IMG/VR virus record: IMGVR_UViG_3300010883_000635
Location: 1 to 20,917 of that record
Source: a virus
Reading direction: 5' to 3' (one strand)
Length of the DNA stretch: 20,917 nt
Shown: one piece after another, positions 1,039 to 20,156 of the stretch
Position numbering within the stretch: the first letter of the stretch is position 1
Layout of the letters: each line of letters opens with the position of its first letter
Position numbers and translations under genes: made by a program
Notes under the pieces: generated by a model
Told to the model about the DNA's origin: nothing
Seen by the model: only the letters and a program-made list of their open reading frames with translations
Database searches by the model: none

Positions 1039-4000
1039 TTAGTTGGGATCATAAGGCAACCTAATTAAATCATTACCTGCAGTATTAAAAATATGTCCTT
1101 TGTATTTAACAATATTTACATCCTGACTAGGATCAGCCGTTGCTTTTGGAGATCTAAAACCGGTAGCTCCTAGTAAATATTTAACGTTATCTTCTGTTAT
1201 TCCTTGTTGCACTAATGTTTTTTTCAATCTATCAGGAGATAAAGCTAAGTCATACGCTGAGGAAGCCTCTTGTAATTGCTCATTAGATAATTCTTTGTAT
1301 AACTCTCCTGATCCATGCGGTTGATATTGACCTTCCCCTCTTATAAAACCTATTACACTGTTTTCAGTTGCGTTAAACTGTGTGTGTCTTTTGTGTTTTC
1401 CTTTAACCAATCCCATTCTATTAAAAAACGAATTAATAACTAAAGCCATTCCTTCTGTTCCTTCGCCTTTTGCTTCTGCATAAGCTAATCGTATTATGTA
1501 TTCTTTATCTGAAATTTTTCTATCGTTAAAAGTAACTCCGTTAGTTTCGTTAATAGGAACATATGGGATGTGTGTAGAAGAATCAAAAAGTTTAGGAGGT
1601 TGTTCTCCTTCTTGTAAGAAAGGATCCATTCCTCTAACTTTACGATAGTGTTTCCAATCTCTTGCTCTTTCCAGAGTATCTACGCCTATGGGAGTCTCTT
1701 GAAATAAATAAGCTTTACCTTCATAGTCATTAGAAACTATATTATCAATATGTTTTTGCTCTAAAAAAGGAGTTACAGAAGGATATCTTTCTTCATCTCC
1801 GCCTCCTATGTAAAGTTCTGTATGTATTTTACCTGTTATTTGGTTTGTTAAACGCCCCCAATAACCTGTTTGAGATTTTTTTGAACCATCATCTCTAAAA
1901 TTACTAGGGTCATTAAGAGGTGGTTTATCAAGAGTTTGACTTGGATAAAGTGTTTGTTCTTGGTCTGCTTTTAAAGGAGGAGGTTGTTTTTTATCTTCAA
2001 TTTGAGTAGTAGAATAACCGCCACCTTCTATCCCAACGCCTCTATAATTAATATTAGGATCAGGCACAGGAGCTTTAGTTTCTTCTTTAACTTCTGGTTG
2101 CTCTATAGGTTTAGCATTAAACTCGTCAGCTTTTTTTGTAACCCATCTTTTAAACCGGCTGCCTTCTGGTTTAGTAGGGGCTTTTATTATTGTTCTTTGA
2201 ACATTTGTATTTATATCAAATACTTGTTCTCCTCCAGCAGCGTTTCTTTTTCTTAATCCAGAAACTAATTTATTATTTTCTTTTCTGTTTAAAATCTGCA
2301 TGGGTAAAAATTGATTTTCTCTAAGAAGCGTATAGCCTTCTTTAGTTTTAATAGCATCATATCCTAATTTAAGTATTTCATTCCTAACTAAAAAACTTTT
2401 ACTTCTTTTTATTCTTTGTATTATATCTTTAGTTTTATTAGGATCATCTCTAAGCACATCTTCTCTAAGTGTAATTTGATAATCTGTTTCTTTAATAATT
2501 TCTTTAGCAATTACTGTGTCTGTGTATATTATTTTATCTTTGTTTTTATTTATACTTTGTTGAACAGCTTCTATTGTAGGGGATTTAATATCTAATTCTA
2601 AAAGTTTATGAAATTTAATTTTACCTGCTATGTTACCTTTACCTTTAGCTTTATATACAGGTACACCAATAGTATCTGACTTACGATAAGCATCATATTT
2701 ATCTTTAACTGTAAAGCCTTTTAAGTTTATATAGAATGTATCTTTAATATCAAGATCTGGTAAATCTTCTTTTTTATATAAAGAAATAGCAGAAGAACTT
2801 TCATAAGTATACTCATCTTCATCTCTTATTAAAAACTGATAAATTTCATTTTGTTGTGTTGATGCAGTTACTTTACCGCCTTCAGCAAAACCTTGTAAAC
2901 TTCCACCTTTTACTCTATTGTAATTAAATTCTTTACCAAAACTTTTAGCAAACTTTCTAAGTTCTCTTCTTGTGTCTCTATCTAAAGCTCCCCATCCTGG
3001 CATGTTTTGCAGAAGAACTTCAGGCAGACCCTGCCTATAAATTATCATATCTACTATGTCAGCAACAATAGGCCCAGCAGGTGCTTTAAGTAAAGCCGCT
3101 ACGCCTTGATTATTTGCGCTCCCTTCTATATACCGATATATATATTCATAAGGCCCATATCCACCCCATCTTCTTACAGCATCTCCTATAATTTCTTCAT
3201 TACTTTCTGCGTCAAAAACACTTCTACCTTCGCTTCTTATAGCATTAGTTATAGCTGCAGCTCCTGTCATCATGGTAGTAACCGCCATTATTTTAGGAAT
3301 ATTTCCTGTTGGATCTCTAATTATATTCCTTGCCATTCCTTTTATAACTGTATTATTAAATGCTGTAGGGTATCCTGCAAACTGTACAAAGATTTGAGCG
3401 CCATAACTGTTCATCCATAAAGGTTTGCTTCCTTCAGCAGCAGACGGATTAAGAATTATTTCTCTAGAAAACATAGCAGTAGAAGGACTTATTGTTTTAT
3501 CAAAAAACTCACTTTCTCTAAAACCATGTTCATCAAAGTCTCCGTTAGAATCTTTATAGGCTTTGTATTCCCTTACGGCTGAGCTTGAATCTATTCCTAT
3601 TTCATGTAATTGATTTAATCTTCTTTGTCTTGCTTTAGCATCTAATGTTACACCATAAAAATTAGTACCTTCGTCTAACTCACCTAATATTCTAATTACT
3701 TTCTGTTGTCCAAATCTATAAGCGCCCATTTGTACTGCTTGTGTCCACGGAGTTAAAAGATTTATATTAAAAAAAGCATTAGAGATTTTCTTAGCTACAT
3801 TAGAGTCTAATCCTTCACCATACATGCCTTCAATTTTATCCATAATAGCATTTTCAGTAGCTACTCCTGCATGATAAGCGTCATAAAAATCTTCATCATC
3901 TAGTTCTTTAAACAACTTAGTTTTTTTACCTGTTAAGTTTTGCATCCTATCAAAAACTTTAATAAGATTTTTCTTAATTTGTTTACCTCCTGCTCTAGCA

Positions 4001-6714
4001 AACTCTGTAGCAAAAGCGTTTGCGTCAGGAACATCAGCTCTAGATAAAGCAATTAAAGGCTCTGTTATACTTGATAATGTAGCGAAAGGTAAATGAGCTA
4101 GTTGTTGAGATACTTTAATAACATCTCCTGCGCCTCTTATAAACTGTTGTGCTATCCGAGGCCCTGGAGTTTTATTTACTTGTACTCCTGAAGTAACTTT
4201 ATATAATTTAGTAAGACTATCGACAAGATTAGACTCATCAAATTTTACACCTGCTTCATTTAGCTCATCTATAATAGGTATAATATAATTATCGCCAAAC
4301 TCTCGTTCACTTCTTCCAAAGTATTGCGCTCGTTCAATAGTTTTACCCATAGATAAAGCATAATCCATACTTACTTTTTGTATATCTGAGTCTATAAACC
4401 CTGCTTCAATTAATCGTGCATCAGGTAAATCATCAAAAGCCCTTTCTTGTAAAAAACTTGTACCGCCTAGTGATCCTTCATCTGCATTTCTTAAATGCCT
4501 ATACTTAGGAGAATTTTTATTAAGCATGTTTTGTACAATTACTTTAGCTTTAAATTTTCTAGCTGTTAAATCAAACTCGTCTGCTATAGTTGAATCAAAT
4601 TTTAATAATTCTTTTTTAGTTTTAATACCTTGAAGTTTATATTTTTTCTTTATAGACTCTAAAGCCATATCTTCAAAGCCGTTATACTTTTCAAGAAAAG
4701 GTTTGTTAGTTGTGGGATCAAGAACGCCACCAAAGACTTTTTGATCTATTGTGTCTTCTGTTACTTTAATAAATTTCTTAGCCTTGTTATCTACACGCGA
4801 CATGCTTTCAGGAATTACTTTTCCATCTGCATCAAAATCTAAAACATATCGAGTAACTCCGTCAGATAAATTTAATTCTTCAATTCCTTCATCTGTCATT
4901 CGTTCTAAACGCATATCTGTATGTCTAGAAGCTACTAGCATACCTTCTAGCTCTTCAGTATTTTCTTCAACAGCTCTAATTTTCCAGTGTCTAGGAAAAT
5001 ATTTAGCTACTTTTTCAGTAACATTATCGAATAAATTAAAAGTAGTTCCGTCTTGTAGCCCGCCTATTTTTGTAAGATCAAAACCGTCACCATAAATTTT
5101 AGCAAACGTATCTTCTATTCCTTTAGCTGCTTTAAGAACGTTGTCAGGTATTGCTCTAGTAACACCAGTATCCTCTCCGTCTACAGGTCTAAGGATTTCC
5201 CCTGTAATTGAATAAACATCATTTTCGCCTTTTCTTCCACGTTTTACTAAGTTAACATAATCACTTAACTCAAAGTTTTTCCTAGTTAATAAATATAAAA
5301 TATCCGAGTTATCTTGAGGATCTACTTTTCCAAATTTGCCTTCTAAATTCTTCATAGCTTTTTGCATACGTAAAGAATAATCAGCGCCTCTAGCGTTTGC
5401 TGCTCCACCAAAATTAACTTGGGCAACATCATCAAGTCCTTTATCAGTTACTCTACGCATAGCATCATGCCGTATGTTTAATAAAAACTGACGCATCATT
5501 TGAGACTCTTCGCCTAATGTTTTATAAGGAGTAGTAGCCTTACCTGTAATTTGTCCTAATACATTATCTACAAGTTTTAATTCTTTTCTCCATAGTTTAA
5601 CGTTTTCAGCTGTGGCATCTTTTACACGTTCTGCATCAATACCGCTTTCTTCTACATATTTATTTAAATTTCTTCTTGCCATAGCATTAGCTGCTTTTAC
5701 TAAACCATAAGCAGCCCCGCCTCCTAAAGCAGCTCCTCCAAAAGTCATGCCTACTGCTTGTGGTGCGCTAAAGTTTTCTCTTATCCCTGTTTGCATATCA
5801 CTAAGTTGATTAGATACTCCTATAACTCCTGCGTCATACGCTCCTTCAGTCATGCCTATACTAGCTGTTCTCATTAATTTATTCTTAGCGTAGTCTTGTG
5901 ATAATTTTTTAGCACTTTGTCTAAAGGCTTGTGTTGCTCCAAACTTAGCAGCTCCAGCTAATGCCACGCCTCCTAAGCCTCCTGTAGACGCAATAAAAGG
6001 AACAGCTAATAGATTAGGTAAATCAAATACAAGATCAATAGCTATGTCTTTAGTAGCTTGAAGAATATGTCCAGTTCCTCCTAGATCAGCGTTATCAAAT
6101 GTAGTTTTTAAATATTTATAATCATCTTTTGTTTGTTGATCCCAATTACCTGATCTTAAAGCTAAAGAAACAGCATCTCCTATACTATATTTAGCATCTC
6201 TTAAATTTTCATAAATATTTTCATTACTTCCTATAGATCTTAAAAAACGTTCAGCTACTTTTTGATAGTTTTGGTCTTCATCTAAATCATACAAGTCATA
6301 TTCTTTATCGCTGTAAGAATCAAGAGAGGTATCTAAGTTATTTTTAGTTGCTTGTGGAGTTAAATATTTTTGAATAACAGGATCATCATATATAGATTTA
6401 TTACGAAGCATGTCGCTTTGTAAATCCTCGCTCCATCGAGAGTCTTCTTCTTTTACTAAAGTATTTTTGTTTAGATACTTTTTAATAGTAGGATTATCGT
6501 ATATAGATTTTTCTTCTTCTTCTTCCACAGGTAAATCTACAGGCTCTGGTTCTGTAGTTTTTTGTTGGATAGGAATATTTAGATTTGCTAACTCTTGAGT
6601 TTGTTTAAGAACAGCGTTCTTTCTTTCTTTTTCAGACGTAGTACTTAAAAACAAATCTGGATGGTCTTGTTGAAATCTTACCCAATCACTCGTCGTAGGG
6701 TTATTAACGGCCAT
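1039..6714 (-). CDS. Giant virion/ejection protein with SleB-type wall hydrolase domain
   Basis: This 1891-aa protein is probably an internal or ejected virion protein that opens the cell wall during DNA entry. Residues 1-200 are acidic and unstructured, with two copies of KSIYD-P-I-KYL (about 69-82 and 106-119). Gly/Ala-rich hydrophobic stretches lie near 224-262, 318-345 and 1140-1160, suited to membrane insertion. FAEGGKV at 1275-1281 looks like a domain boundary. Residues about 1320-1480 may be an ADP-ribosyltransferase-like fold. A Pro-rich linker follows (about 1535-1610). Residues about 1735-1885 match the SleB/Hydrolase_2 family: RLAYAEAKGEGTEGMALVI, with E1747 as the likely catalytic Glu, NSFFNR, GEGQYQP, LLGATGF and YKGHIF, in the family order. 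The start follows AGGATTAAT, 1 nt after the upstream stop. Size and position recall the T7 gp16 role, but the hydrolase here is C-terminal and of another family. Naming the body an ejection protein is inference. Confidence 0.8.
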   Translation of the reverse strand: MAVNNPTTSDWVRFQQDHPDLFLSTTSEKERKNAVLKQTQELANLNIPIQQKTTEPEPVDLPVEEEEEKSIYDNPTIKKYLNKNTLVKEEDSRWSEDLQSDMLRNKSIYDDPVIQKYLTPQATKNNLDTSLDSYSDKEYDLYDLDEDQNYQKVAERFLRSIGSNENIYENLRDAKYSIGDAVSLALRSGNWDQQTKDDYKYLKTTFDNADLGGTGHILQATKDIAIDLVFDLPNLLAVPFIASTGGLGGVALAGAAKFGATQAFRQSAKKLSQDYAKNKLMRTASIGMTEGAYDAGVIGVSNQLSDMQTGIRENFSAPQAVGMTFGGAALGGGAAYGLVKAANAMARRNLNKYVEESGIDAERVKDATAENVKLWRKELKLVDNVLGQITGKATTPYKTLGEESQMMRQFLLNIRHDAMRRVTDKGLDDVAQVNFGGAANARGADYSLRMQKAMKNLEGKFGKVDPQDNSDILYLLTRKNFELSDYVNLVKRGRKGENDVYSITGEILRPVDGEDTGVTRAIPDNVLKAAKGIEDTFAKIYGDGFDLTKIGGLQDGTTFNLFDNVTEKVAKYFPRHWKIRAVEENTEELEGMLVASRHTDMRLERMTDEGIEELNLSDGVTRYVLDFDADGKVIPESMSRVDNKAKKFIKVTEDTIDQKVFGGVLDPTTNKPFLEKYNGFEDMALESIKKKYKLQGIKTKKELLKFDSTIADEFDLTARKFKAKVIVQNMLNKNSPKYRHLRNADEGSLGGTSFLQERAFDDLPDARLIEAGFIDSDIQKVSMDYALSMGKTIERAQYFGRSEREFGDNYIIPIIDELNEAGVKFDESNLVDSLTKLYKVTSGVQVNKTPGPRIAQQFIRGAGDVIKVSQQLAHLPFATLSSITEPLIALSRADVPDANAFATEFARAGGKQIKKNLIKVFDRMQNLTGKKTKLFKELDDEDFYDAYHAGVATENAIMDKIEGMYGEGLDSNVAKKISNAFFNINLLTPWTQAVQMGAYRFGQQKVIRILGELDEGTNFYGVTLDAKARQRRLNQLHEIGIDSSSAVREYKAYKDSNGDFDEHGFRESEFFDKTISPSTAMFSREIILNPSAAEGSKPLWMNSYGAQIFVQFAGYPTAFNNTVIKGMARNIIRDPTGNIPKIMAVTTMMTGAAAITNAIRSEGRSVFDAESNEEIIGDAVRRWGGYGPYEYIYRYIEGSANNQGVAALLKAPAGPIVADIVDMIIYRQGLPEVLLQNMPGWGALDRDTRRELRKFAKSFGKEFNYNRVKGGSLQGFAEGGKVTASTQQNEIYQFLIRDEDEYTYESSSAISLYKKEDLPDLDIKDTFYINLKGFTVKDKYDAYRKSDTIGVPVYKAKGKGNIAGKIKFHKLLELDIKSPTIEAVQQSINKNKDKIIYTDTVIAKEIIKETDYQITLREDVLRDDPNKTKDIIQRIKRSKSFLVRNEILKLGYDAIKTKEGYTLLRENQFLPMQILNRKENNKLVSGLRKRNAAGGEQVFDINTNVQRTIIKAPTKPEGSRFKRWVTKKADEFNAKPIEQPEVKEETKAPVPDPNINYRGVGIEGGGYSTTQIEDKKQPPPLKADQEQTLYPSQTLDKPPLNDPSNFRDDGSKKSQTGYWGRLTNQITGKIHTELYIGGGDEERYPSVTPFLEQKHIDNIVSNDYEGKAYLFQETPIGVDTLERARDWKHYRKVRGMDPFLQEGEQPPKLFDSSTHIPYVPINETNGVTFNDRKISDKEYIIRLAYAEAKGEGTEGMALVINSFFNRMGLVKGKHKRHTQFNATENSVIGFIRGEGQYQPHGSGELYKELSNEQLQEASSAYDLALSPDRLKKTLVQQGITEDNVKYLLGATGFRSPKATADPSQDVNIVKYKGHIFNTAGNDLIRLPYDPN

Positions 6715-6715
6715 A

Positions 6716-9106
6716 TTAATCCTTTTCTTCAGGTGCTAGTAAGCTCTTGTTATTACGTAACTGGTGCGGATATAATGAACTGTCTTGTATTTTTTCAAAC
6801 AACGGCCCATAAACAGACTCTAAAGCTTTCATAAAGTCTTCTTGATTTAAATTATTATTTAAAGCAAATGTTTTATAATCATCAACTACGTTTCTTTTAA
6901 AGGCTTGCCAATTAGGTTTTGTAATTTCATCATAAAACGTCATAAGTTTTGCTTGATCTTTAATATCTTTTCTGGCTTCTTCTGTACTATCATACATTTC
7001 TACAATTTTATCTTGAGTTTTTATCGCTGTTTCTTTAGCTAACTCAAGTAATTCTGTGCCGTATTTTGTAGCATCTACAACAGCAAAGGTAGTTAACGCA
7101 CCTGATGTAATAGCCTTGTTAGAGTTCGTAAAGAAAGAGCCTGTTGCTTTTTCTACGGATTTCATAAAGCCTTTAATAGCTGGCGGAGCCTCAGCAACTA
7201 ATTGTTTAGTTTTTAGTTTAACAATAGGAGCTACTTCATTATAAAGTTCTTTAAGGTCATCTTCGCTTTTCTTTATAGTTGCGTCAGTATATTCTAACCT
7301 AGTTGGATCAGGTAGTTTTGTTTCAGCGTAATCTAAAAAGTCTGTTTTTAAACCTTTTACTGTCGAATATAAATTTTTAAAAGCTTCTGTTACATTAAAA
7401 TCTACTTTGTCTGTAGATTTAAAATAATCGTCTACTGTTTTAAAATCTTCCATAGTTATAGAAGGCAAAGGGTTTTTATTATCTTTACTAATAACGTTAT
7501 CTAGTTCATCAGGAGACAAAGTGTTAGCGTAGCCTAAGTTGTTAGGTGTATCTTTCTTTTCGTTTATCAGCATAGTATCGGTATCAGTTGCATAACTGCT
7601 AGGATCCATAACTAAGTTACGTAAGTATTGTGTCTCCTCAGTTACCCCTTCTTTTTCAAGAGCGTCAACAAACTTCACAAAGTTATCTTGTTCATTTTTA
7701 TTTAAAAAGTTACCTTTACTAAGCTGTTTTGTTACGTTTGTAATTACTTGTACTGCTCGACCATCAAACTGTTCGCCATTACTTAACGCATTTTGAGTCT
7801 TGATTACAGCATTATCATGTCTAATTTTTTGCTCGTTTGATATACCACCGTCTAGATAACCAATACCGCCTTGTTTTAACATACCATAAGTTTGTTCACG
7901 CATTTCTTGCGGAGTGTATGGCAGAAATTGTATGCCTACACCTCGAGCTTTATTCACTACAGCACTATAAGATTGTTCATATTTACCAGTTCCACTATAA
8001 GATGTGTTTATACCTGTTAATCTTTTATCATTATAAACGCGATCTATAGCGTTTTGCATAAAATCTTTGAAAGTTTTAATACCCATACTAGAATCATCAG
8101 CAAAAGTTTTGTCATATACATATTTGTTTGCAGAAGCAATCATGCCAACTTGTGTCCAGAAAGCTTGTTTCGTAGTTTTTGACATTCTATTGTTCATGTC
8201 ATACGCCTGTAGCTCTCCTGATTTACCTGATTCATCATCTGACCAAGTTATTTTGAAAGCTGTGTCTCCCTTAAATCTAGGATCTTTCTCAACATTACCT
8301 TGTGCTAAGGTTGAAAATTCAGCAAATTTTCCTGTTACTTCAAGTGGCCCAGCTCCAGTATCTCCTTTTATTATAAACAAATTTGACATTCTGTTATTAT
8401 CTTTTGCTGCTTCGTATTTTCCTGTAGCTTCATCCCACTCATTAGATTTTCGATTCATTTCTTTTAAAAGAGAAGCCATAGAATCCGTTTGAGGAGTACT
8501 GTCTCCTTCTTTATATTTTTTACTTCCTGTAAATAAACCTCCTAAGTCTCTTATAACACCTGAGTTATTTACAATATTTTTAAATTGGTTCATTCTAGCT
8601 TTATTATAAGGTGCATATAGTGAGGTTCTTTTTTGTGCTGCTGTTTCATCAGCACTAAGCGCAAACTCATTTGATAAATCTAATAACCTACTACGAGTAA
8701 CAATATCGTCTTCTATATCTTCATTAACCTGTTTTAATAAGAATGCTCTTTGACCCTTATCAATACCTGCACCAGAAGCCATTTTATCATCCATAAATTT
8801 ATTACGTTCTATTCTTCTATACTCATCTTTCCATCCTGGGCCTAAGCCGTAGTTTTCTGTATGATCTTCTCTCCAAGCTATAGTTCGATTTATAAAACCA
8901 TATTGTTTAGCTACTTCAGGATCGTTACTTTGCCAAAACTCTAGTCCTCTTTTTTTTGCTTTTGCTTTAGAAGCAGCATCATAGGTTAATACAGCAGGCA
9001 CAATAATCGAAGAAGCTTTGCTTGTTTTTTTTGCGCGTTTAAGGTTCTTTGATGAGTCCGATACCATTTTTTGTACTTGAGGATCACTACTTATACTTAT
9101 AGCCAT
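6716..9106 (-). CDS. Large virion protein, probable internal/ejection protein, 796 aa
   Basis: I do not recognise a named domain. The protein begins MAISISSDPQVQKMVSDSS with a short basic helix (residues 17-30, NLKRAKKTSKAS) and then IIVPAVLTYDAASKAKAKK. A soluble, mostly helical, charged body of about 600 residues follows. Near 664-680 there is one moderately hydrophobic stretch (AITSGALTTFAVVDATKYG). The C-terminus is acidic and amphipathic. Its size, helical character and position directly before the giant hydrolase-bearing protein resemble the gp15/gp16 neighbours of T7-like phages, so a role in the internal core or in DNA ejection is likely. This rests on context, not on homology I can see. 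The ATG overlaps the stop of the 189-aa gene (TAATG), and only 1 nt separates its stop from the next start, so the proteins are probably made together. Confidence 0.75.
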   Translation of the reverse strand: MAISISSDPQVQKMVSDSSKNLKRAKKTSKASSIIVPAVLTYDAASKAKAKKRGLEFWQSNDPEVAKQYGFINRTIAWREDHTENYGLGPGWKDEYRRIERNKFMDDKMASGAGIDKGQRAFLLKQVNEDIEDDIVTRSRLLDLSNEFALSADETAAQKRTSLYAPYNKARMNQFKNIVNNSGVIRDLGGLFTGSKKYKEGDSTPQTDSMASLLKEMNRKSNEWDEATGKYEAAKDNNRMSNLFIIKGDTGAGPLEVTGKFAEFSTLAQGNVEKDPRFKGDTAFKITWSDDESGKSGELQAYDMNNRMSKTTKQAFWTQVGMIASANKYVYDKTFADDSSMGIKTFKDFMQNAIDRVYNDKRLTGINTSYSGTGKYEQSYSAVVNKARGVGIQFLPYTPQEMREQTYGMLKQGGIGYLDGGISNEQKIRHDNAVIKTQNALSNGEQFDGRAVQVITNVTKQLSKGNFLNKNEQDNFVKFVDALEKEGVTEETQYLRNLVMDPSSYATDTDTMLINEKKDTPNNLGYANTLSPDELDNVISKDNKNPLPSITMEDFKTVDDYFKSTDKVDFNVTEAFKNLYSTVKGLKTDFLDYAETKLPDPTRLEYTDATIKKSEDDLKELYNEVAPIVKLKTKQLVAEAPPAIKGFMKSVEKATGSFFTNSNKAITSGALTTFAVVDATKYGTELLELAKETAIKTQDKIVEMYDSTEEARKDIKDQAKLMTFYDEITKPNWQAFKRNVVDDYKTFALNNNLNQEDFMKALESVYGPLFEKIQDSSLYPHQLRNNKSLLAPEEKD

Positions 9107-9675
9107 TATTGTTCTACCTCTGGTTTGCTGAGTAAACTAGGAGTTTCTGAAGGGCTTTCAGGAATTTCTAAAGTTTCTACTCGTTGTTGTATTTCTCTAG
9201 GGATACCTGTTGTAGTTAAAGCAGGTATAATTTTTTCTTTAGCTGTTTCAATAACTTTTTGAACTTCAGTTAATTGTTCATCAGAATCCATAACTTCAGC
9301 CTCATCATCTAACACAGGCTCGTCAATTCCTCCGTGTGTAGCTAGAGCAATTAGCATATACATAACAGGCTCTAAAAGCATAACAGCTAAATCAGGATTC
9401 CATAGTCCAGAAGTAAATCCTTTATAAATAAGAATATCTGTAATATTACCTATAGGAACACCTTTGTGCATAAGATCCATAAGATCATGGTAAGTTTCAG
9501 GCTCTGTTAATTCTACAAAAATTGTATCTAAAGCAGGAGTTACAGCAGTAAACTTAGGAGCTTTCTCCCAATCATACGGTTCTTCAGGATTGTTTGTTAG
9601 AGACTGACCAGGAACAGGCCCACCTGTTGTTGCTAGATGTTCTAGTCCTTCTCTGCTATAAGTTGGTTCTGCCAT
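9106..9675 (-). CDS. Conserved-type virion-associated protein, 189 aa
   Basis: The N-terminus is flexible, with the motif GGPVPGQSLTNNPEEPYDWE (about 18-37). A compact region from about 40 to 115 contains AVTPALDTIFVELTEPETYH, a short loop KGVPIGNITD, and two hydrophobic helices including LAVMLLEPVMYMLIALATHG (97-116). The tail is acidic and Pro/Glu-rich, ending KPEVEQ. A 'P-G-x-S-L-T-(x)-P-(x)-P-W-E' start before a helical domain is a layout I have seen in uncharacterised structural proteins of marine phages; I know no function. The hydrophobic helices could lie in a membrane or in a protein core. The start follows GGAGATACTA, a good ribosome site. It is coupled to the 796-aa gene by a 1-nt overlap, so it probably belongs to the same particle module. 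Confidence 0.75.
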   Translation of the reverse strand: MAEPTYSREGLEHLATTGGPVPGQSLTNNPEEPYDWEKAPKFTAVTPALDTIFVELTEPETYHDLMDLMHKGVPIGNITDILIYKGFTSGLWNPDLAVMLLEPVMYMLIALATHGGIDEPVLDDEAEVMDSDEQLTEVQKVIETAKEKIIPALTTTGIPREIQQRVETLEIPESPSETPSLLSKPEVEQ

Positions 9676-9687
9676 TAGTATCTCCGT

Positions 9688-10767
9688 TTAATAATTATGT
9701 AAGCCCTGCTTAGTTTTCATGTAAGCAGTATTATCTATTTGTCCACCAAACATAAACTCTTTGTTTGCGCCTGGATAATGTGTAGCAAAGTTTTCCATAG
9801 CTTCTGGAGTAAACAAAGGAGCAACTTCCATTTCTTGAAGAAGACCATAAGAAGGGTTGTAAGCACCTCCATTAGCAGCGGTAGGTTCAGTTAACTTATC
9901 TAAACCTTCTTTAACTGTAGATGCGCTTAGTAAACTGTTTGATGCTTTTGCACCTGTTTCTGCTGCTATTGTTTCTTGAGTTATGCTTTGAGCAGTTGCG
10001 TCTTGAGCTAACTCCATAGGTGTTCTGCTTACAATTTTTGTTGGATCAGGTGCTATAGTAAAATTAGTACCTCTTTTTGCAGATATAGGATTGTAATTTA
10101 GTATTGAATCAGTACTCATAGAGGTATCCCCTATATTTGCCATAGATTTTCCTGTAAATTTAGAAGTATCTAAAGCATATAAAGAAGGATCTACTCCAGT
10201 AGGATTAGACGCTATAGCCATAGCTTGATCTCTAGCTGCATCAGCAGGAGTAGAAGCAAAAGTACTTGTATCAAAACCTCCAGTTTTTCCTGCAATTTTA
10301 TTAGTTATTGCGCTTAAACCGTTTGCAAGAAACTGAGAAGTAGATCCGCCTGCTGACATAGCTGTATTAGTTACGGCTGTATAAGCTGTCCTAGCTCCGT
10401 TAGCTATTGCTGTTGCTGTTCGAGCTACTATTCCTGAAGTACTTGCTGCTGTTGTTGCCGCTGCATTAGCAGCTATAGTTGCTTGCGTGGCTGCAGCAGT
10501 TGTACCAGCTACGGCTGTCGTGCCTGCTGTAGTAGCCCCTGCTGTGCCTGCTGCTGCTGATACGGCTGCGCCTGATTGAACCAATCCTGCTACAAAATAC
10601 GCTCCTGTAACTATAAGCGCCGCTGCTGCAATAATTTTAAAAGCTTTACTCTTAACTACTTTCTTTAATTTCTTTTTAACTTTTTTAGCAAAACGACTAA
10701 TTTCTTTTCTAACTTTTTTAGAAGAAGCCAATAAAGCTCCTATTGCTAAAAATGGTAATAATGCCAT
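9688..10767 (-). CDS. Ala/Thr-rich membrane-active protein, probable ejection protein
   Basis: This 359-aa protein opens with a hydrophobic segment (MALLPFLAIGALLASS), then a strongly basic helix with KKVRKEISRFAKKVKKKLKK (residues 17-36), then a transmembrane-quality segment KIIAAAALIVTGAYFVAGLV (44-63). Residues about 66-150 are Ala/Thr/Gly-rich with little charge. The C-terminal half is soluble, with a terminal Gly/Tyr/Asn-rich stretch containing HYPGANKEFMFGGQIDN. The hydrophobic-basic-hydrophobic start suits a protein that enters the host membrane. In T7-like phages the small membrane-inserting ejection protein (gp14) lies next to the larger internal proteins, and this gene occupies that position. 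This comparison is of layout, not of sequence. AGGAG at 10777-10781 gives a strong ribosome site 9 nt before the ATG. Confidence 0.72.
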   Translation of the reverse strand: MALLPFLAIGALLASSKKVRKEISRFAKKVKKKLKKVVKSKAFKIIAAAALIVTGAYFVAGLVQSGAAVSAAAGTAGATTAGTTAVAGTTAAATQATIAANAAATTAASTSGIVARTATAIANGARTAYTAVTNTAMSAGGSTSQFLANGLSAITNKIAGKTGGFDTSTFASTPADAARDQAMAIASNPTGVDPSLYALDTSKFTGKSMANIGDTSMSTDSILNYNPISAKRGTNFTIAPDPTKIVSRTPMELAQDATAQSITQETIAAETGAKASNSLLSASTVKEGLDKLTEPTAANGGAYNPSYGLLQEMEVAPLFTPEAMENFATHYPGANKEFMFGGQIDNTAYMKTKQGLHNY

Positions 10768-10787: not shown

Positions 10788-13700
10788 TTATGCTTCTGTT
10801 TTTGGAATAACAAAAGATCCGAGTGCTGAAAATACTTTATCAAGATTAGAACTTTTTAAATTATCCCAATACTGTGCGCTAGTAGCTTCGTTACTTAATG
10901 ATTGTGCTATAAGATGTGTTTTACGATCTTCGTATTTTTCTGCTGCTTGAAACTCATAAGCTGCTCTATCTCTTAATTCTTGCCATAAAAATGCTTGAGC
11001 TGATTGTGACATACCAAACATATTCTGAGCGTTCTGCATAGAAATTTGATTAGCTGCTGCAGTATTAATTGTGTTTGCTTGTCTACGCCATGCTACGTTA
11101 GATTGTTCTACGGCTTGTGCGTTAGTAGCGTTCCATTTAGCTCTATCGTAAGCTGACTGCGCATTATACTGACTAACTTGTGTAGCTAATTGAGCATTAA
11201 GTTTTGCTTCATCAGATGTTAAACCTCTTATTTGAGCTTCTGTTGTAGCTTTTGTATTTGCATTAAACTGTGACATAGCATTTAACTGTTGTTTATTTGT
11301 TAGTTCTACCTGTTGTGCAAGGCTAGTCATAAATTGATTAGTTTGATTTTCACTTGTAGCATTAAATTGTTTAGATGCGTTTTCAGCCGCTTGATTACTT
11401 AACATAGCTTGTTGTGTTTGTTGTCCAGAAAGCATAGTAGCTTGTTGAGCATTACTAAGATTAGCCATATCCATGTTTAAAAAAGACTGAGCATTCTGTG
11501 CAGAAATTCTAGTTCTTTGATCTAATGTTGCCATATCTAAAGACGCTAAAGCTGTAGCGTTTTGTAGTATTGCTTGTTGTTCGTTATTTAAATTAGTAAG
11601 ACCTGCAGTTTGCATAAATTTACTGTTAGCAAGTTCTACTTGTTGTTCCGTAGTAAACTTAGTCATATCCATGTTAGCTGTCATAGTAGCGTTTTGCATA
11701 GCTTTTTGTTGATCTACATTAAGCTGAGCTAATCCCATTTGTTGAGCTAACTCAGAATTTTTTAAATTCATTTGCATACGTTTATTTAAATTAGCTAACT
11801 CAGTCTGTTGAGAAGCATTTAAATTTTCTGTAGAAGCTTGGTTCTGTGCGCTAAGATTAGCTAAACGCATTTGTTGATCTGTGCTAAGATTAGCTTTTTT
11901 CATATCGTTAGCAAAAGCTGCGTTCTGTGATAAGAAAGTTGCTGCTGTTTGATACTCAAGCATTTTTTCTTGTTGAGAAGCTGACATGTTTTCTCTAGCT
12001 GTTGCATCTTGTATTTGTAAATTAGCTAAATCTATTTGTGTTCCTGCAGCTAAATTTTGAGAGTTCATAGCTTGTTGGTTCTGTGCGTTTAATGTTGCAG
12101 CTTGTTGTTGGTTTTGTAAGTTAGCTAAACGTGTTTGTTGTTGTTGTTGTGCTGTAGTTATTACAGCGTCTTGATTAAACTGGCTTTGCATTACTGACAT
12201 TTGTTGTGCGTTCTGTGCTGTTTGACTAGCTGCTGTTTGTTGGTTAGCTACGTTAGTCATACGTCTGGTCATGTCTAATCTAGCTCCTTCTAAATTAGCT
12301 TGTTGTTCATTAGATAAATTTTGAGCTGCTCTAGTCTGTAAAGCTTGTGCGTTATTCTGAGCAATAGGAAAAGTCATTTGAATAATAGCATTAAACAAAG
12401 CATCTCTTCCTACAGACGAAACTTCCATACCGCGTTGAGCCATGTTTTGATTAGCTGCATCTACTGCAGGCTTAGCCCAAGCAGGAACTGTGCCGCTTTC
12501 TAAACCTCCTAATAATGTTTCCATCTGAGAACTAACTAAGGCTTCTGTTGGTAAGGCGGCTATTGCTGCTTGAACATCTACAGGTTGAGAATCTATTTTA
12601 GCTTCTACTGTTGTAGGATCAGCTACAATAGCTGCAGTAATACTTGGAGGTATGTCTGATATTTGAGCTACCATTAAAGCAGCAGACCCTGTTCTTGATG
12701 TACCTTGTACTGCGCTCCTCTGAGCAGCATCAAAGCCTATACTATTAATAATAGTAGTTTCAATAGAGGTTGCAGAAGAGCCTGTAATAGCTTCTCTTGT
12801 TTGTTGTTCAGCATCTGAAGTAGAGGAAAGCTGTCCGGCTACTCCTGAAACTTGAGGAACGTATGCTCCTGCAGAAATTATAGCATTAACATTAGTAGCT
12901 TTACTTGCTTCTATTATAGAATTAGAAACTTGCGCAGCTACTGCTGCACCTGATAGATTTCTAATTTCTTCTACTTGTGCTTGAGCTTCTGAAGATAAAG
13001 TTCCTGTAGCTGAGTTTACAGCAGAAGGAGTTACATTTGCTGCACGAACCATAGTAGAGGCTGTTATAGCGTCTTGTTCAGTTGCTGCTGTTGCACTAGC
13101 TGTAGGAGCTGTTGCTGTAGAAAAATCAGAATCTGCTGTAGAAGCCGAAGCTTCAAAATCCCCTACAGTCTCTTCGTTAATCGTTTGTATATCTGTATCA
13201 GGAGTAACAACTTCTGTAGCATCTGTGTCTAGTTTAGTGCCGAGATCTTCGCTAATACTTGGAATGTCAGGAACTATGGTTTCGCCTTTACGAGATAAAA
13301 GTGCTGTGTCTCTAGCGGCTGTTATTTTCTTTTCTGTTTCAGCAGTATAAATATTACGCTCGTTTTCTTTTTGAGTGTTTACCGTTCCAGTATCTTCATC
13401 TTTCTTTCTGTCTTGTCCTTTGTTTGCAACAAAACTACTACTACCGCCTCCACCATCAGGATTATTTCTACCGTCTGAGCCTCCGCTAATATCAGGTTCT
13501 TCACTAACAACTGTTGAAGGAGCAACATACGGGGAAGAAGCTACTGGGTTGTAAACTGGTGCGTTGTTAGCTGGTGGTATATTTGCTGGAACTCCTGTAT
13601 CAGCTTCTTCACTTCCAGCCCTGTATTCATTTTGTGGTATTGGAACAGGTACAGGTGTAGGAACAGGACGTTTAGTAGCAGGCAAAGTAACACGTTTAGG

Positions 13701-13823
13701 TGCTTTAACTTGAGCTTTTTTCCCTTTAGCTTGACCAGAGCTATTCTTTCCGCCTCTAGCTAACTCTACACGGCCACCTGTTCGATAGTCTAATCTTTTC
13801 TTTTTATGTCTTTTACGTGCCAT
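10788..13823 (-). CDS. Q/N/A-rich long-helix protein with 11-residue repeats
   Basis: This 1011-aa protein has three parts. Residues 1-240 are disordered: a basic start (MARKRHKKKRLDYRTGGRVE), a Pro-Val stretch near 52-62, a Gly/Ser patch near 113-130, then an acidic Ser/Thr region. Residues about 240-490 are Ala/Ser-rich and probably helical. From about 507 to 880 the protein is an uninterrupted run of 11-residue units with consensus QQ-x-x-L-A-N-L-N-x-x. This period is typical of hendecad coiled coils, so a very long helical rod is likely. The C-terminus, about 890-1011, is more charged and aromatic. It has no signal peptide or clear membrane segment. Similar 'coil containing' proteins occur in marine phages with no known function. 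It is encoded between the membrane-anchored 79-aa gene and the putative ejection proteins, so a virion rod, internal core or tail-length element is possible. The start follows AGGAATTAAT. Confidence 0.78.
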   Translation of the reverse strand: MARKRHKKKRLDYRTGGRVELARGGKNSSGQAKGKKAQVKAPKRVTLPATKRPVPTPVPVPIPQNEYRAGSEEADTGVPANIPPANNAPVYNPVASSPYVAPSTVVSEEPDISGGSDGRNNPDGGGGSSSFVANKGQDRKKDEDTGTVNTQKENERNIYTAETEKKITAARDTALLSRKGETIVPDIPSISEDLGTKLDTDATEVVTPDTDIQTINEETVGDFEASASTADSDFSTATAPTASATAATEQDAITASTMVRAANVTPSAVNSATGTLSSEAQAQVEEIRNLSGAAVAAQVSNSIIEASKATNVNAIISAGAYVPQVSGVAGQLSSTSDAEQQTREAITGSSATSIETTIINSIGFDAAQRSAVQGTSRTGSAALMVAQISDIPPSITAAIVADPTTVEAKIDSQPVDVQAAIAALPTEALVSSQMETLLGGLESGTVPAWAKPAVDAANQNMAQRGMEVSSVGRDALFNAIIQMTFPIAQNNAQALQTRAAQNLSNEQQANLEGARLDMTRRMTNVANQQTAASQTAQNAQQMSVMQSQFNQDAVITTAQQQQQTRLANLQNQQQAATLNAQNQQAMNSQNLAAGTQIDLANLQIQDATARENMSASQQEKMLEYQTAATFLSQNAAFANDMKKANLSTDQQMRLANLSAQNQASTENLNASQQTELANLNKRMQMNLKNSELAQQMGLAQLNVDQQKAMQNATMTANMDMTKFTTEQQVELANSKFMQTAGLTNLNNEQQAILQNATALASLDMATLDQRTRISAQNAQSFLNMDMANLSNAQQATMLSGQQTQQAMLSNQAAENASKQFNATSENQTNQFMTSLAQQVELTNKQQLNAMSQFNANTKATTEAQIRGLTSDEAKLNAQLATQVSQYNAQSAYDRAKWNATNAQAVEQSNVAWRRQANTINTAAANQISMQNAQNMFGMSQSAQAFLWQELRDRAAYEFQAAEKYEDRKTHLIAQSLSNEATSAQYWDNLKSSNLDKVFSALGSFVIPKTEA
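11184..12305 (-). repeat. Hendecad (11-residue/33-bp) repeat region
   Basis: Residues 507-880 of the 1011-aa protein divide into about 34 consecutive 11-residue units with no insertion or loss of phase. Examples are QQMRLANLSAQ (650), QQTELANLNKR (672), QQMGLAQLNVD (694), QQVELANSKFM (727), QQAILQNATAL (749) and QQVELTNKQQL (837). The QQ pairs always fall at multiples of 11. At DNA level the units have diverged, so the period shows best in protein. Confidence 0.85.
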
Positions 13824-15947: not shown

Positions 15948-16880
15948 TTATCCTGTCCAAGAACTTCCATCCCAATACCTAGCACTATGCGCTCCTGCTG
16001 AAGCTACTTCAGTATCAAAAACTGATCCAGTATTTCCTGTAGCAGTTACTCTTACAAATATTGCTGTTGACGTATTATAAGTTGTAGTAGTATTTACTGA
16101 CGCATCTGTAGCTGTAGTTTTTGTTGTAGCAAAAGTTGTTGTAGTATTAAAAGTTGTTGTTGTATTAAAAGTTGTTGTAGTAGCATGTGACGTACCGAAA
16201 GTCGTAGTAGTATTATAACTTGTTGTAGTAGAGTGTGAAGTTCCAAAAGTTGTAGTTGTGTTTTTACTTGTAGCTGTAGATCTCGTTGTATTTCTACTTG
16301 TAGCAAAACTTGTGTTAAACGTAGTTGTTGTACTTCTACTTGTGTTGAAAGAAGTGCTTCTGCTTGTGGTTATCGTTACATTACCAACAGTATTTTCATC
16401 TGCTGTAAAATGAGTGGTGTTAAAACTGGTATTTCTGCTAGTGGCAAAAGTTGTAGTAGTGCTTTTGCTAGTGCCTCTTGTAGTATTAAAACTGGTACTA
16501 AAAGTAGTTGTAGTATTAAAAGATGTTGAAGTTGCTCTAGTAGTATTATAACTTGTTGTAGTAGCGTGTGAAGTTCCAGTAGCTCTAGTAGTATTATAAC
16601 TTGTTGTAGTGCTTCTAGTTGTTGAAGTAGCTCTAGTTGTGGCTGTAGCAAGTGTTGTATTATAAGTTGTAGTAGTGTTTGTAGTGCCGCCAGTTGATGT
16701 AGTTTTAGTAGTTGCTGTATCTTTAGTAGTCTGTCTAATAGCATTAAATACTGTAGTTAAAGAACCATCTGTTTCTAAAACAACAGCATAGTTTACAAAT
16801 CGTAAATTTCCGTTTGTTACTTTTACTAAAATTGGATCAGGTGTTTCAATCGAATCACCATCCCATACTCTAATACCCAT
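15948..16880 (-). CDS. Thr/Ser/Asn-repeat surface or fibre protein, 310 aa
   Basis: Residues 1-50 form a short folded-looking start (MGIRVWDGDSIETPDPILVK). Residues about 51-266 are almost wholly Thr, Ser and Asn, with regularly placed Phe/Tyr, Arg and His, in units such as NTTTTFGTSH and SYNTTRAT. The C-terminus is a small domain that ends SARYWDGSSWTG. The WDG at both ends, VWDGDS and YWDGSSW, resembles aromatic-Gly elements found in carbohydrate-binding or tail-fibre modules. Alternating Thr with spaced aromatics suits a beta-structured fibrous shaft. No signal peptide is seen, so a virion part is more likely than a secreted one. It directly follows the tail fibre gene with 15 nt between, including AAGGAA before the start. 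The dense Thr/Ser makes it a plausible acceptor for the transferase-like genes downstream; this is inference. Confidence 0.75.
   Translation of the reverse strand: MGIRVWDGDSIETPDPILVKVTNGNLRFVNYAVVLETDGSLTTVFNAIRQTTKDTATTKTTSTGGTTNTTTTYNTTLATATTRATSTTRSTTTSYNTTRATGTSHATTTSYNTTRATSTSFNTTTTFSTSFNTTRGTSKSTTTTFATSRNTSFNTTHFTADENTVGNVTITTSRSTSFNTSRSTTTTFNTSFATSRNTTRSTATSKNTTTTFGTSHSTTTSYNTTTTFGTSHATTTTFNTTTTFNTTTTFATTKTTATDASVNTTTTYNTSTAIFVRVTATGNTGSVFDTEVASAGAHSARYWDGSSWTG
16083..16730 (-). repeat. Thr-rich low-complexity repeat region
   Basis: Residues 51-266 of the 310-aa protein consist of short degenerate repeats, mainly (N/G/A)-T-(T/S)-(T/x)-T-F with local six-residue spacing, for example FNTTTT three times running near residues 238-255. 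The DNA is built from GTAGT/GTTGT-type words on the plus strand, which also keeps other frames open here. Confidence 0.8.
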
Positions 16881-16895
16881 TATCTATTCCTTGTA

Positions 16896-19800
16896 TTATA
16901 CAACGTACCAAACAAAACCAGTTTTCTTAGCTGACTGATCGCCTGAAGGTGCTGTAGTTACTATTGCAAAGTCTCTAGCGTCTACATCAGTTAAAGCTAC
17001 TTGAACCATAGTTCCGTTATCGTTTACAACAATTCTATCTGCATCTGCAAGAGTTGTAGAAGTAGCACTTGTATTGCCATCTATAATGTTTAACTCTGCT
17101 GCAGTACTTGTCACACCATCTAGGATATTTAACTCTGCGGCTGTAGAGGTAACTCCATCAAGAATGTTTAGTTCTGCGGCAGTTGATGTTACTCCGTCAA
17201 GAATATTTAATTCAGCAGCTGTAGAAGTTACTCCGTCTAATATGTTTAGCTCTGCAGTAGTTGATGTCACTCCGTCTAGTATGTTTAACTCTGCTCCAGT
17301 TGAAGTAACAGCAGTTGAGTTAAGAACTAATTTGCCGTCACCGATAGTAACTTTATCATTAAAAGCAGCTGAGCCTGCGTCTGAACCGTCAAGTGTAAGC
17401 ATGGTAATATCAGCAGTAGCATCTGTTCCTTTGAATATTATATCACTATCATTAGCAGCTGCATCTATTGTAATGTTTCCTGAGCTTGTTGTTATGTTTA
17501 TTGCAGCATCTCCTGCTGCTATATCATCTGCTGCACTTGATAGTCCTGCTTGAAAATATGTTTTAAAGGTAGCGGCACTTGTAACTTTCATAGTACCTGC
17601 ATCATTATGAAGAATACCATCACCATCTGCTACAGCAGTTGTTCCTACTGTTGCTCCACCATCAATAAGATTTAATTCACCTGCTGTGCTTGTCACACCG
17701 TCTAAGATGTTAAGTTCTGCGGCAGTTGATGTCACTCCATCTAGGATGTTCAGTTCTGCTGTTGTGCTTGTAACGCCGTCAAGTAAGTTAAGTTCAGTAA
17801 AGGTACTAGTTACACCATCTAAAATGTTAATTTCTGCAGCAGTTGAAGTAACCCCATCAAGTATATTTAATTCTGCTGCTGTACTTGTAACCCCATCAAG
17901 TATATTTAATTCTGCTGTGGTACTTGTAACCCCATCAAGTATATTTAATTCTGCTGCGGTACTTGTAACCCCATCAAGTATACTTAATTCTGCTGCTGTA
18001 CTTGTAACCCCATCAAGTATATTTAATTCTGCTGCGGTACTTGTAACCCCATCAAGTATATTTAATTCTGCTGCTGTGCTTGTTACACCGTCAAGTATAT
18101 TTAATTCTGCTGTAGTTGAGGTAACTCCATCCAGGATATTAATTTCTTCTGGTGTAGAACTAATCTGTGTAGTTGATGCAGCAGCTAGAACTGGAAGAGT
18201 ACCGGATACATTTGGTAATCCTATTGTTCTATCTCCTGTTGGATCAATTACAGTTAATGTAGTTTCATGGGCATCTGCTGTAGCTCCTTCAAATATAATT
18301 GCATTTGAAGCTTCCATAGTAACTGTATCTACTGTAGTAGTTGTTCCTGCTACAGTAAGGTTAGGTACTAGTAGTTGTCCTGTACTAGGATTATATCTTA
18401 ATGCTCCTGTATCGTCTAGTAAAGCATTAGATTCATCATGAAATATTACAGGAAAGTTAGTGTTAGCTGTGCTATCTGTGACTGTAGCTGTAGCAGATAA
18501 TGTTGCATTTGCTACTGTAGTTCCTGCAATAACACTTGCCAAAGCTGTACCGTTAACTGTAATTGCATCAGCTTCTAAAGTTCCGTCTATGTCTGCATCA
18601 CCTGATATGTCTAAGGTTGCAGCATCTAGTTCACCACTAATAGTAATATGTCTACCACCAGTAATATCAATATTTGCATCAGCTATAAGAGCTTTACTTG
18701 CTATAACAGTTCCGTTTGTTATTCCATCTATAAGATTAATGTCTGCTGCACTAGCTGTAACACCATCCAAAATGTTTAACTCTTCTGTAGTGCTAGTAAC
18801 GCCATCAAGTAAGTTAAGTTCAGTAAAGGTGCTAGTTACCCCGTCAAGAATATTTAATTCTGCTGCGGTACTTGTAACTCCGTCAAGAATGTTAAGTTCT
18901 GCTGCGGTGCTTGTAACGCCATCAAGAATGTTTAACTCTGCCGTGGTGCTTGTAACTCCATCAAGAAGATTAAGCTCTGTAAAAGTAGATGTAACTCCGT
19001 CTAAAATGTTAAGTTCTGATGCTGTGGAAGTAACACCATCTAATATATTTAGCTCTGCAGCAGTTGACGTAACTGTTGTTCCACCTATAGATAGTGCGTC
19101 TGTTTCAAGCGTACCATCAAAGTCTCCGTCTACAGCATCTATGTTACCTACAAATTCTGTAGCGGTTAATTTGCCTGAACTTGGGTTATAAGTAAATCCT
19201 GTATCAGTTTCTAATCCTTGAGTTCCTGTAGCCCCATCAACAAAAACTGGAAATATAGTTTCGTCTGTGCTGTTGTTTGCAGATAATGTAACTGTTGTTG
19301 CTAGTGCTGCTGTTCCAGAAGTATCTTGATTAAGAGTACCTATTACAAAGTCTAATGTATTATCACTATCCTCATAAGTTACAGTTATATTTGTTTCAGT
19401 ATTCGAGCTAACCATAGCTCCTACAGTATCACTAATTGTTTCTGCTAATGTAACACCACCTATTGTAATAGCATCAGCTTCAAGAGTACCATCAATATCT
19501 GCGTCACCACTAATGTCTAAACTTGTTGCGTCTACTTCTCCTGCTACTGTTAATACACCGCTTGATAGTGTCATTAAATCAGTGTCTGATGTATGTCCAA
19601 TAGTTGTTCCGTTAATTATAACATTATCGACTGTTAAAGTTGTTAACGTTCCTAATGAAGTTATATTAGATTGAGCAGCAGTAGTTACAGTAGCCGCTGT
19701 TCCAGTTACGTTCCCTGTAACGTTTCCTGCAACGTTCCCTGTAACGTTTCCTGTTAATGGCCCTGCAAAGGCATCAGAAGTTACTGTGCCATCAAAGTAA

Positions 19801-20156
19801 GCATCTTTAAATTCTAGAGAGTTTGTGCCTAAATCAATATCGTTATCTGTAACAGGAACAATAGCTCCGTCTTGTATGCGTATTTGTTCTACAGCCGCAC
19901 TCGATACTTCTACATATACTCCCCATCTATTGTTTGTACCATCAGCAACTATCTTATTTAAAAAGTCTATATCGCCTATAGTGTGTATGTTACCGCCTTG
20001 CCCCGCAGTACCATCATGTCTATGACCTGTAGAATCTGCGCTGCTTGAAGAGTAAGCAAAAGCGTTTAAGAGTTGGTTGTATTCATTATTAAAAAGAGCA
20101 GCGGTGATAGTATCGCCATCAGCTAATGAACTTTGTCTGGTATATGTCTGAGCCAT
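16896..20156 (-). CDS. Tail fibre protein with ELNILDGVTSTA repeat arrays, 1086 aa
   Basis: The probable tail fibre has a conserved-looking N-terminus: MAQTYTRQSSLADGDTITAA, then LFNNEYNQLLNAF and DSTGHRHDGTAGQGG (41-55), the 'H-x-H-D-G-T' element common near phage fibre starts. DIDLGTNSLEFKDAYFDGTV (106-125) and a GNVT repeat follow. The shaft has three arrays of a 13-residue unit, consensus T-(A/T/F)-A-E-L-N-I-L-D-G-V-T-S, with 9, 13 and 6 copies. Between them are beta-rich spacers that include two copies of LDISGDADIDGTLEADAI. The C-terminus ends KKTGFVWYVV. Such repeats are known from marine phage fibres and are thought to form a trimeric beta-rich shaft. The protein would bind the host surface. 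GGGAG precedes the ATG, and the gene starts 3 nt after the upstream stop. Confidence 0.9.
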   Translation of the reverse strand: MAQTYTRQSSLADGDTITAALFNNEYNQLLNAFAYSSSSADSTGHRHDGTAGQGGNIHTIGDIDFLNKIVADGTNNRWGVYVEVSSAAVEQIRIQDGAIVPVTDNDIDLGTNSLEFKDAYFDGTVTSDAFAGPLTGNVTGNVAGNVTGNVTGTAATVTTAAQSNITSLGTLTTLTVDNVIINGTTIGHTSDTDLMTLSSGVLTVAGEVDATSLDISGDADIDGTLEADAITIGGVTLAETISDTVGAMVSSNTETNITVTYEDSDNTLDFVIGTLNQDTSGTAALATTVTLSANNSTDETIFPVFVDGATGTQGLETDTGFTYNPSSGKLTATEFVGNIDAVDGDFDGTLETDALSIGGTTVTSTAAELNILDGVTSTASELNILDGVTSTFTELNLLDGVTSTTAELNILDGVTSTAAELNILDGVTSTAAELNILDGVTSTFTELNLLDGVTSTTEELNILDGVTASAADINLIDGITNGTVIASKALIADANIDITGGRHITISGELDAATLDISGDADIDGTLEADAITVNGTALASVIAGTTVANATLSATATVTDSTANTNFPVIFHDESNALLDDTGALRYNPSTGQLLVPNLTVAGTTTTVDTVTMEASNAIIFEGATADAHETTLTVIDPTGDRTIGLPNVSGTLPVLAAASTTQISSTPEEINILDGVTSTTAELNILDGVTSTAAELNILDGVTSTAAELNILDGVTSTAAELSILDGVTSTAAELNILDGVTSTTAELNILDGVTSTAAELNILDGVTSTAAEINILDGVTSTFTELNLLDGVTSTTAELNILDGVTSTAAELNILDGVTSTAGELNLIDGGATVGTTAVADGDGILHNDAGTMKVTSAATFKTYFQAGLSSAADDIAAGDAAINITTSSGNITIDAAANDSDIIFKGTDATADITMLTLDGSDAGSAAFNDKVTIGDGKLVLNSTAVTSTGAELNILDGVTSTTAELNILDGVTSTAAELNILDGVTSTAAELNILDGVTSTAAELNILDGVTSTAAELNIIDGNTSATSTTLADADRIVVNDNGTMVQVALTDVDARDFAIVTTAPSGDQSAKKTGFVWYVV
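17067..17300 (-). repeat. Fibre repeat array 3 (6 x 39 bp)
   Basis: Six units of 39 bp encode TGAELNILDGVTS through TAAELNIIDGNTS near the fibre C-terminus. Units are in frame and without spacers. Codon use differs between units, so they are older copies than those in the middle array. Confidence 0.9.
17649..18155 (-). repeat. Fibre repeat array 2 (13 x 39 bp)
   Basis: Thirteen 39-bp units run from TPEEINILDGVTS to TAGELNLIDGGAT. Six neighbouring units, 17844-18077, are almost identical at the DNA level, with one Asn-to-Ser change (ELSILDG). Confidence 0.9.
18714..19064 (-). repeat. Fibre repeat array 1 (9 x 39 bp)
   Basis: Nine 39-bp units run from TAAELNILDGVTS to SAADINLIDGITN. The TFTELNLLDGVTS variant appears twice, each time followed by a TT-x-EL unit. 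Confidence 0.9.
19701..19754 (-). repeat. GNVT tetrapeptide repeat in fibre N-terminal region
   Basis: The sequence TGNVTGNVAGNVTGNVTG (residues 135-152) is four to five copies of a four-residue, 12-bp unit. It lies where fibre proteins of this kind often have a 'G-N-(L/V)-T-G' linker between the attachment domain and the shaft. Confidence 0.85.

Follow-up and report, generated by a model that had tools for sequence, protein, structure and literature searches.

A hendecad register kept by selection in a hypothetical protein of HMO-2011-type podoviruses, and its possible role as a tube-forming ejection protein

Introduction

Phages of the HMO-2011 type are among the most abundant in the sea. 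To our knowledge, only in a few model phages is it understood in detail how a short-tailed phage gets its DNA across the cell envelope. The stretch of viral DNA analysed here (the window; 20,917 nt, IMG/VR record IMGVR_UViG_3300010883_000635) encodes a 1011-aa protein in which 11-residue units, or hendecads, follow one another over hundreds of residues. Is the register of these hendecads real and maintained, what structure does it imply, and what could such a protein do for a phage with a short tail?

Annotation gives little guidance. A tblastn search with the protein recovered 27 phage records, each from a phage that is of the HMO-2011 type or related to it, with hosts belonging to Puniceispirillum, Pelagibacter, Roseobacter, Vibrio, Aeromonas, Pseudoalteromonas, Rhizobium and Sinorhizobium. 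No function is assigned in any of the 27, the annotation being hypothetical and, in one case, ‘huntingtin’. An alignment-based scan of IMG/VR added at least about 600 candidate relatives, of which the best 80 were used. Pfam and PHROG searches with the window protein gave no match, nor did sequence searches of the PDB with the single protein and with a profile, phmmer giving no hit to the phiX174 protein H; a text search of the literature found neither virion proteomics nor a structure for any family member. The parts of the gene are as follows.

10788..13823, minus strand: whole gene of the 1011-aa hendecad protein, an open reading frame
12504..13823, minus strand: residues 1-440, variable N-terminal part rich in Pro, Gly, Ser and Thr, differing among relatives
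12354..12485, minus strand: residues 447-490, conserved N-terminal anchor P-x-WA ... RG(M/L)xxxS ... PxAQ (alignments A1 and A2)
10980..12380, minus strand: residues 482-948, unbroken 42.5-hendecad predicted helix (11-state HMM, sliding 33-mers, wheel, harmonics)
11184..12305, minus strand: residues 507-880, the stretch marked in the original prediction
11126..11366, minus strand: residues 820-899, ladder of aromatic residues that each occupy repeat position 6, F820-F831-F853-Y886-W897
11079..11114, minus strand: residues 904-915, conserved C-terminal anchor xSNxxWRR, its columns in A1 and A2 varying little or not at all; the register anchor
10791..10979, minus strand: residues 949-1011, C-terminal tail

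An unbroken run of hendecads

The original prediction placed about 34 consecutive hendecads without a phase break at residues 507-880 and proposed autocorrelation, with peaks at 11 and 22, as a check. Over these residues peaks occur only at lags 11, 22, 33, 44, 55 and 66 (z of 4.5, 7.2, 6.1, 8.5, 5.7 and 5.2, respectively), the maximum lying at 44, and a leave-one-out PSSM assigns the same phase to all 34 hendecads. The true run is longer. A cyclic 11-state HMM decodes residues 482-948 as a single unbroken run of 42.5 repeats; it was trained on isolate relatives only, the window protein and metagenomic sequences close to it being left out, with starting values taken from the window stretch, and it decoded no run in 100 shuffled sequences. 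In sliding 33-mers the phase does not change between about residues 463 and 979, and scores are positive from 474 to 968.

The 467-residue run contains 18.6% Gln, 17.1% Ala, 12.6% Asn and one Pro. Amide content stays at 24-35% in relatives spanning 31-50% GC, and the amide richness is therefore not an effect of AT bias. A search for a tandem repeat at the DNA level under the gene found none, so the array does not stem from recent slippage.

Length changes occur in whole hendecads

Proteins of the family are 459-1813 aa long, with runs of 18-82 repeats in 97 complete relatives, unbroken in 94 of them. The length test used the distance between the upstream anchor RG(M/L)xxxS and the near-end anchor SNxxWR. 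Modulo 11, this distance belongs to one and the same class for each of the 88 relatives with confident anchors. The relatives are not independent of one another, but the 18 distinct distances (174-878 aa), every one of which is in this class, still need at least 17 changes of length. Moduli other than 11 bring at most 6 of the 18 into one class. Looser regex anchors place 73 of 75 relatives in one class, and a profile anchor inside the repeat places 97/97, a count possibly biased toward in-register matches; one false anchor match (L068, distance 14) was removed by its score and is absent from the strict test of 88. Upstream of the anchor there are 81 distinct lengths, which scatter across the mod-11 classes and are unconstrained. 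With the anchor distance fixed modulo 11 and the upstream lengths free, it follows that selection keeps the register exactly, and does so in a conserved family.

Many of the lengths are 110 residues apart (328, 438, 548, 658, 768 and 878), and long members show internal repetition at lags 110 and 55. Growth has therefore been by whole units, often ten hendecads together. The hendecad genes of relatives L072, L073, L074, L075 and L079 differ by such steps of 110 aa (ten hendecads) and carry the internal lags of 110 and 55. The 110-aa steps suggest a higher-order module.

A very long helix with two opposite seams

That the repeat forms a very long helix is well supported. An AlphaFold2 monomer model of residues 440-1011 is all helical, with no strands, although confidence is low (mean pLDDT 62); its helices of 140 and 111 residues are separated by low-confidence breaks at about 609-825. 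A short relative, L090, gives a single helix of 214 residues with pLDDT of about 75-87 over most of its length and again no strands, an outcome far from the globular domains or broken short helices that had been named as grounds for abandoning the idea. Foldseek found no match below E 3 for the low-confidence window model in the PDB; the model of the short relative matched one unnamed viral protein in BFVD (36% identity), probably itself a member of the hendecad family. At 1.5 A per residue, the helix would span 56 nm for residues 507-880 and 70 nm for 482-948 if it is one piece, and the longest distance between anchors in the family, 878 aa, would reach 132 nm if fully extended. The single helix of about 55 nm first proposed thus agrees with the long helices of the models, but its length holds only if the low-confidence breaks in mid-protein do not divide it. 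The suggested comparison with the length of a podovirus tail is not obviously meaningful, as repeat length varies 5-fold among relatives.

The arrangement of residues around this helix was obtained by decoding 97 proteins (39,736 residues) onto an 11/3 helical wheel. One hydrophobic seam is formed by position 5 (L/M) and position 8 (A/L), the opposite one by position 3 (A/M/V/I) with positions 10 and 6. Between them lies an amide stripe, the Gln/Asn/Ser side, with Gln at 50% of position 2 and Q/S/N/T at position 9, both almost free of large hydrophobics; position 1 is Gln/Asn. Positions 4 and 11 are charged in 37-40% of cases. With the seams at 0 and 180 degrees, the amide dipole of the family points to 84 degrees and the charge dipole to 263 degrees. 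F, Y and W at position 6 are confined to the C-terminal part of the repeats. Asn occupies position 7 in 62% of repeats family-wide, forming a ladder whose role in the barrel proposed below is not obvious.

The harmonics of hydrophobicity describe the same layout. In the window protein the first harmonic is 0.03 (null 0.08) and the second 0.38 (null 0.09+-0.05; family 0.36), whereas the trimeric controls P22 gp26 and T7 gp17 have first harmonics of 0.4-0.6 in their coiled parts. The Kyte-Doolittle hydrophobic moment has no peak at 3.67, at first apparent evidence against helix packing but explained by the two-seam pattern. The P22 portal barrel, used as a control, showed no clear 11-period. The ‘L-A-N-L core’ that had been taken for the single core is thus one of two opposite seams. 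The unusual Gln/Asn/Ala in place of Leu/Ile at core positions is borne out as far as core-facing amides and alanine go. Because the seams are two and opposite (harmonics 0.03 and 0.38), many side-by-side helices are preferred to a simple dimer or trimer of helices coiled around an odd polar core. On the best reading, this is not an ordinary coiled coil, the two seams with an amide side and a charged side fitting the helix of a many-stranded barrel or a helix sheet.

Comparison with known ejection proteins

A structure of this kind is known. The pilot protein H of phiX174 forms a decameric, amide-lined DNA tube 170 A long; of the 23 side chains that face the lumen, 18 belong to Asn, Gln or Arg (PMC7354561). 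H and the family have in common Gln-rich 11-residue repeats of the form Q-x-x-[LI]-[AT]-x-[MI]-Q, with amides and charges on opposite faces and hydrophobics between. When the start of the H tube (33 residues, hendecads) is placed in the family frame, its amide and charge dipoles lie at 82 and 245 degrees, close to the 84 and 263 degrees of the family. Against the family profile the H hendecads score 14.5, which none of 500 shuffles reaches and which beats all but one of 813 unrelated frames; a composition-free profile likewise gives 0/500, but with it the H proteins of alpha3 and ID2 are marginal (54/500 and 24/500 shuffles). P values from local shuffles are not used here, as the segments in question had been picked by score. 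The two differ in that H has 3 hendecads followed by 11 heptads and the family 18-82 hendecads, and in that H belongs to an ssDNA microvirus with a solved tube, whereas the family belongs to dsDNA podoviruses, for which a tube is proposed. Profile comparison by hhalign (family A2 versus H A4) gave a probability of 0.3% and E 0.2, with no homology detected, and we therefore count the likeness as one of design, probably convergent.

Podovirus ejection proteins offer a second comparison, through gene order (next section) and through the Q/N/A-rich helices that they share with the family. T7 gp14 and P22 gp7 score above shuffles with the full profile, weakly so when composition is removed (16/500 and 27/500), and hhalign of the family with either gave a probability under 1%, a weak test with single-sequence templates. 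The gp14-like proteins are about 200 aa and change little in size, whereas the hendecad family ranges widely.

Gene neighbourhood

In nearly all relatives with enough sequence, the hendecad gene comes after the tail and tail-fibre genes and ahead of a cassette of constant order: hendecad gene, an optional gene of 220-490 aa, then genes of 150-260, 300-1040 and 800-2070 aa. In the window the cassette reads:

9688..10767, minus strand: next gene, 359 aa, with a basic N-terminus and a hydrophobic segment; missing or replaced in some relatives
9106..9675, minus strand: cassette gene of about 190 aa; 150-260 aa at the same place in most relatives
6716..9106, minus strand: cassette gene of 796 aa, placed like T7 gp15 / P22 gp20 by gene order and size only
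1039..6714, minus strand: cassette gene of 1891 aa, placed like T7 gp16 / P22 gp16 (PHROG matches)

The small genes that replace the 359-aa protein in some relatives seem unrelated. The 1891-aa protein matches PHROGs for endolysin (1e-44) and virion structural proteins, and its C-terminus (window 1039-1560, minus strand) has a likeness, below cut-off, to Hydrolase_2 (cell wall hydrolase). The cassette resembles the ejection operons gp14-gp15-gp16 of T7 and gp7-gp20-gp16 of P22 (PMC8954989) in its similar order and in a largest protein that comes last and is endolysin-related, but has one or two additional genes between the hendecad and gp15-like genes. Repeat length does not correlate with either large cassette protein alone; with the sum of the cassette proteins the correlation is weak (rho 0.31, p 0.025, uncorrected).

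The C-terminal tail is a Gly-rich hydrophobic segment in several relatives. An S74 chaperone domain was found in 3 of 10 relatives scanned by Pfam (CRP-235, CRP-738 and CRP-3), the window protein having none, and the hendecad protein of CRP-235 (L024) has an N-terminal LysM domain. PHROG 4287, annotated as a DNA ejection protein, matches the Gly-rich and S74 end of CRP-235 and CRP-738; S74 is therefore not exclusive to fibres. In these three Roseobacter phages (L024 3477-6011, L025 3597-6011 and L026 4185-6044), the S74 domain comes after a Gly-rich segment and ends the protein.

Several neighbours deserve mention in their own right. In relative L019, a clear Hydrolase_2 gene (6210-7151) directly follows the hendecad gene. 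In the Pelagibacter phage HTVC033P (L023 2202-4316), two 2OG-Fe(II) oxygenases and a putative ferrochelatase are encoded just upstream of it. Genes annotated as (toxin-activating lysine-)acyltransferases lie beside or near it at L015 6561-7010, L024 419-841 and L025 532-987, and on this annotation might modify a virion protein. The window also encodes, on the minus strand at 16896-20156, a 1086-aa protein with many 13-residue TSTAAELNILDGV repeats (DNA units of 39 bp, also 78 and 117 bp) and a Pfam Bactofilin match in its N-terminal part, likely a tail fibre, and at 15948-16880, minus strand, a 310-aa protein with no assigned function made mostly of short Thr/Ser/Asn-rich repeats (TSFNTTRSTTTTF...).

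Proposed role and alternatives

An ejection role for the hendecad protein is likely, supported by the order of the cassette, the endolysin and virion-structural matches of its largest protein and the LysM domain of CRP-235. The link to DNA ejection raised in the original prediction is plausible. With confidence just short of even, we propose more specifically that the protein is an ejection (pilot) protein of HMO-2011-type podoviruses and forms an amide-lined helical tube; we infer its presence in the virion, the barrel, the number of subunits and the passage of DNA. The repeat would form a single alpha-helix of great length, with a turn of exactly 3.67 residues. At infection, several copies would leave the head and align in parallel, side by side, positions 5 and 8 of one helix making lateral contact on one side and positions 3, 10 and 6 on the other. 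The helices would close into a barrel lined by the amide and hydroxyl side chains of positions 2 and 9 and charged on its exterior at positions 4 and 11. Such a tube would prolong the short tail across the envelope, the DNA sliding past the amides as proposed for the H tube, and the number of repeats would set its length. Only in-register insertions and deletions would survive, because any other shift would turn a seam into the lumen.

The mod-11 lengths (18/18), the bifaceted wheel, the H-like angles, the helical models and the position of the cassette count for the tube. Against it count the lack of detectable homology to H, gp14 or gp7 and of anything in the PDB by sequence or fold, a window model of low confidence with breaks, all models being of monomers, the S74 domain of three relatives and a repeat length uncorrelated with either large cassette protein. 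What weighs most is that the literature search turned up no virion data and that the longest members, at 878 aa (132 nm if fully extended), are longer than any periplasm is wide; a ruler or rod would suit these no less well than a tube across the periplasm.

That ruler would be a tape-measure-like internal protein. Its long helix, ejected as an extended rod or a loose bundle, would span the portal and tail channel or order internal proteins and would exit unfolded ahead of the DNA, forming no DNA tube. We think this unlikely, though it deserves serious attention. In several genera of siphophages, tape-measure proteins have 11-aa repeats that differ in number, 44-aa blocks that are gained or lost, and F/W markers (PMC3271669, PMC5099701). 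The family is likewise helical, with 11-aa units varying in blocks of whole hendecads (often 110 aa), and the strongest lag in the window protein is 44; the aromatic ladder at position 6, confined to the C-terminal part, may correspond to the F/W markers. However, the relatives are described as podoviruses, with no long-tail genes annotated in the relative stretches examined. In known tape measures, spacings of 11 residues alternate with others of 18; the family has no 18-residue units and a register almost never broken, and its Q/N-rich double seam, with separate amide and charge stripes, needs lateral partners on both sides.

The place of the gene, directly after the tail-fibre genes, also recalls a trimeric (or dimeric) hendecad coiled coil outside the particle, a fibre or tail needle of variable length as in fibres, and the gene of P22 gp26, likewise a long helical phage protein, is comparably placed between tail and ejection genes. 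S74 chaperone domains are mostly known from trimeric fibres. We nevertheless consider a fibre improbable. gp26 and T7 gp17 are built of heptads with one hydrophobic stripe, which the family lacks, and do not match the family profile (142/500 and 180/500 shuffles); S74 also occurs in PHROG 4287 matches; and the conserved end is the C-terminal part of the repeats, the N-terminal part varying most. Very improbable is a surface-binding amphipathic 11-mer helix of the apolipoprotein, synuclein or LEA type, acting on membranes or DNA with no ordered oligomers: the 11-residue period and the few large hydrophobics would suit it, but the hydrophobic dipole of a lipid-binding helix is absent and a strict register over up to 80 repeats better suits lateral packing. 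A compositional or low-complexity artefact, or a non-helical repeat such as a beta-solenoid, would be in keeping with a Q/N/A-rich sequence and is scarcely tenable, being already contradicted by the shuffles, the single class of all 18 lengths, the lack of a DNA tandem repeat and, for the solenoid, the lack of predicted strands in the window protein and L090.

Implications

Taken to its full extent, the tube proposal describes a tape measure of tail-less kind: abundant marine phages would build, after exit from the head, an amide-lined helical DNA tube of tens of nm whose length is set by the number of whole-unit repeats. We regard this wider claim as doubtful. If true, the tube of HMO-2011-type phages would be far simpler and longer, a single 11-residue unit repeated throughout; its design would be comparable to that of the phiX174 H tube, with no relation to it in sequence. 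The family would provide a natural series, from 18 to 82 hendecads in the same register, for the study of long barrels or coiled coils, and for a protein that nearly all isolate records call hypothetical, the proposal offers a prediction that can be tested.
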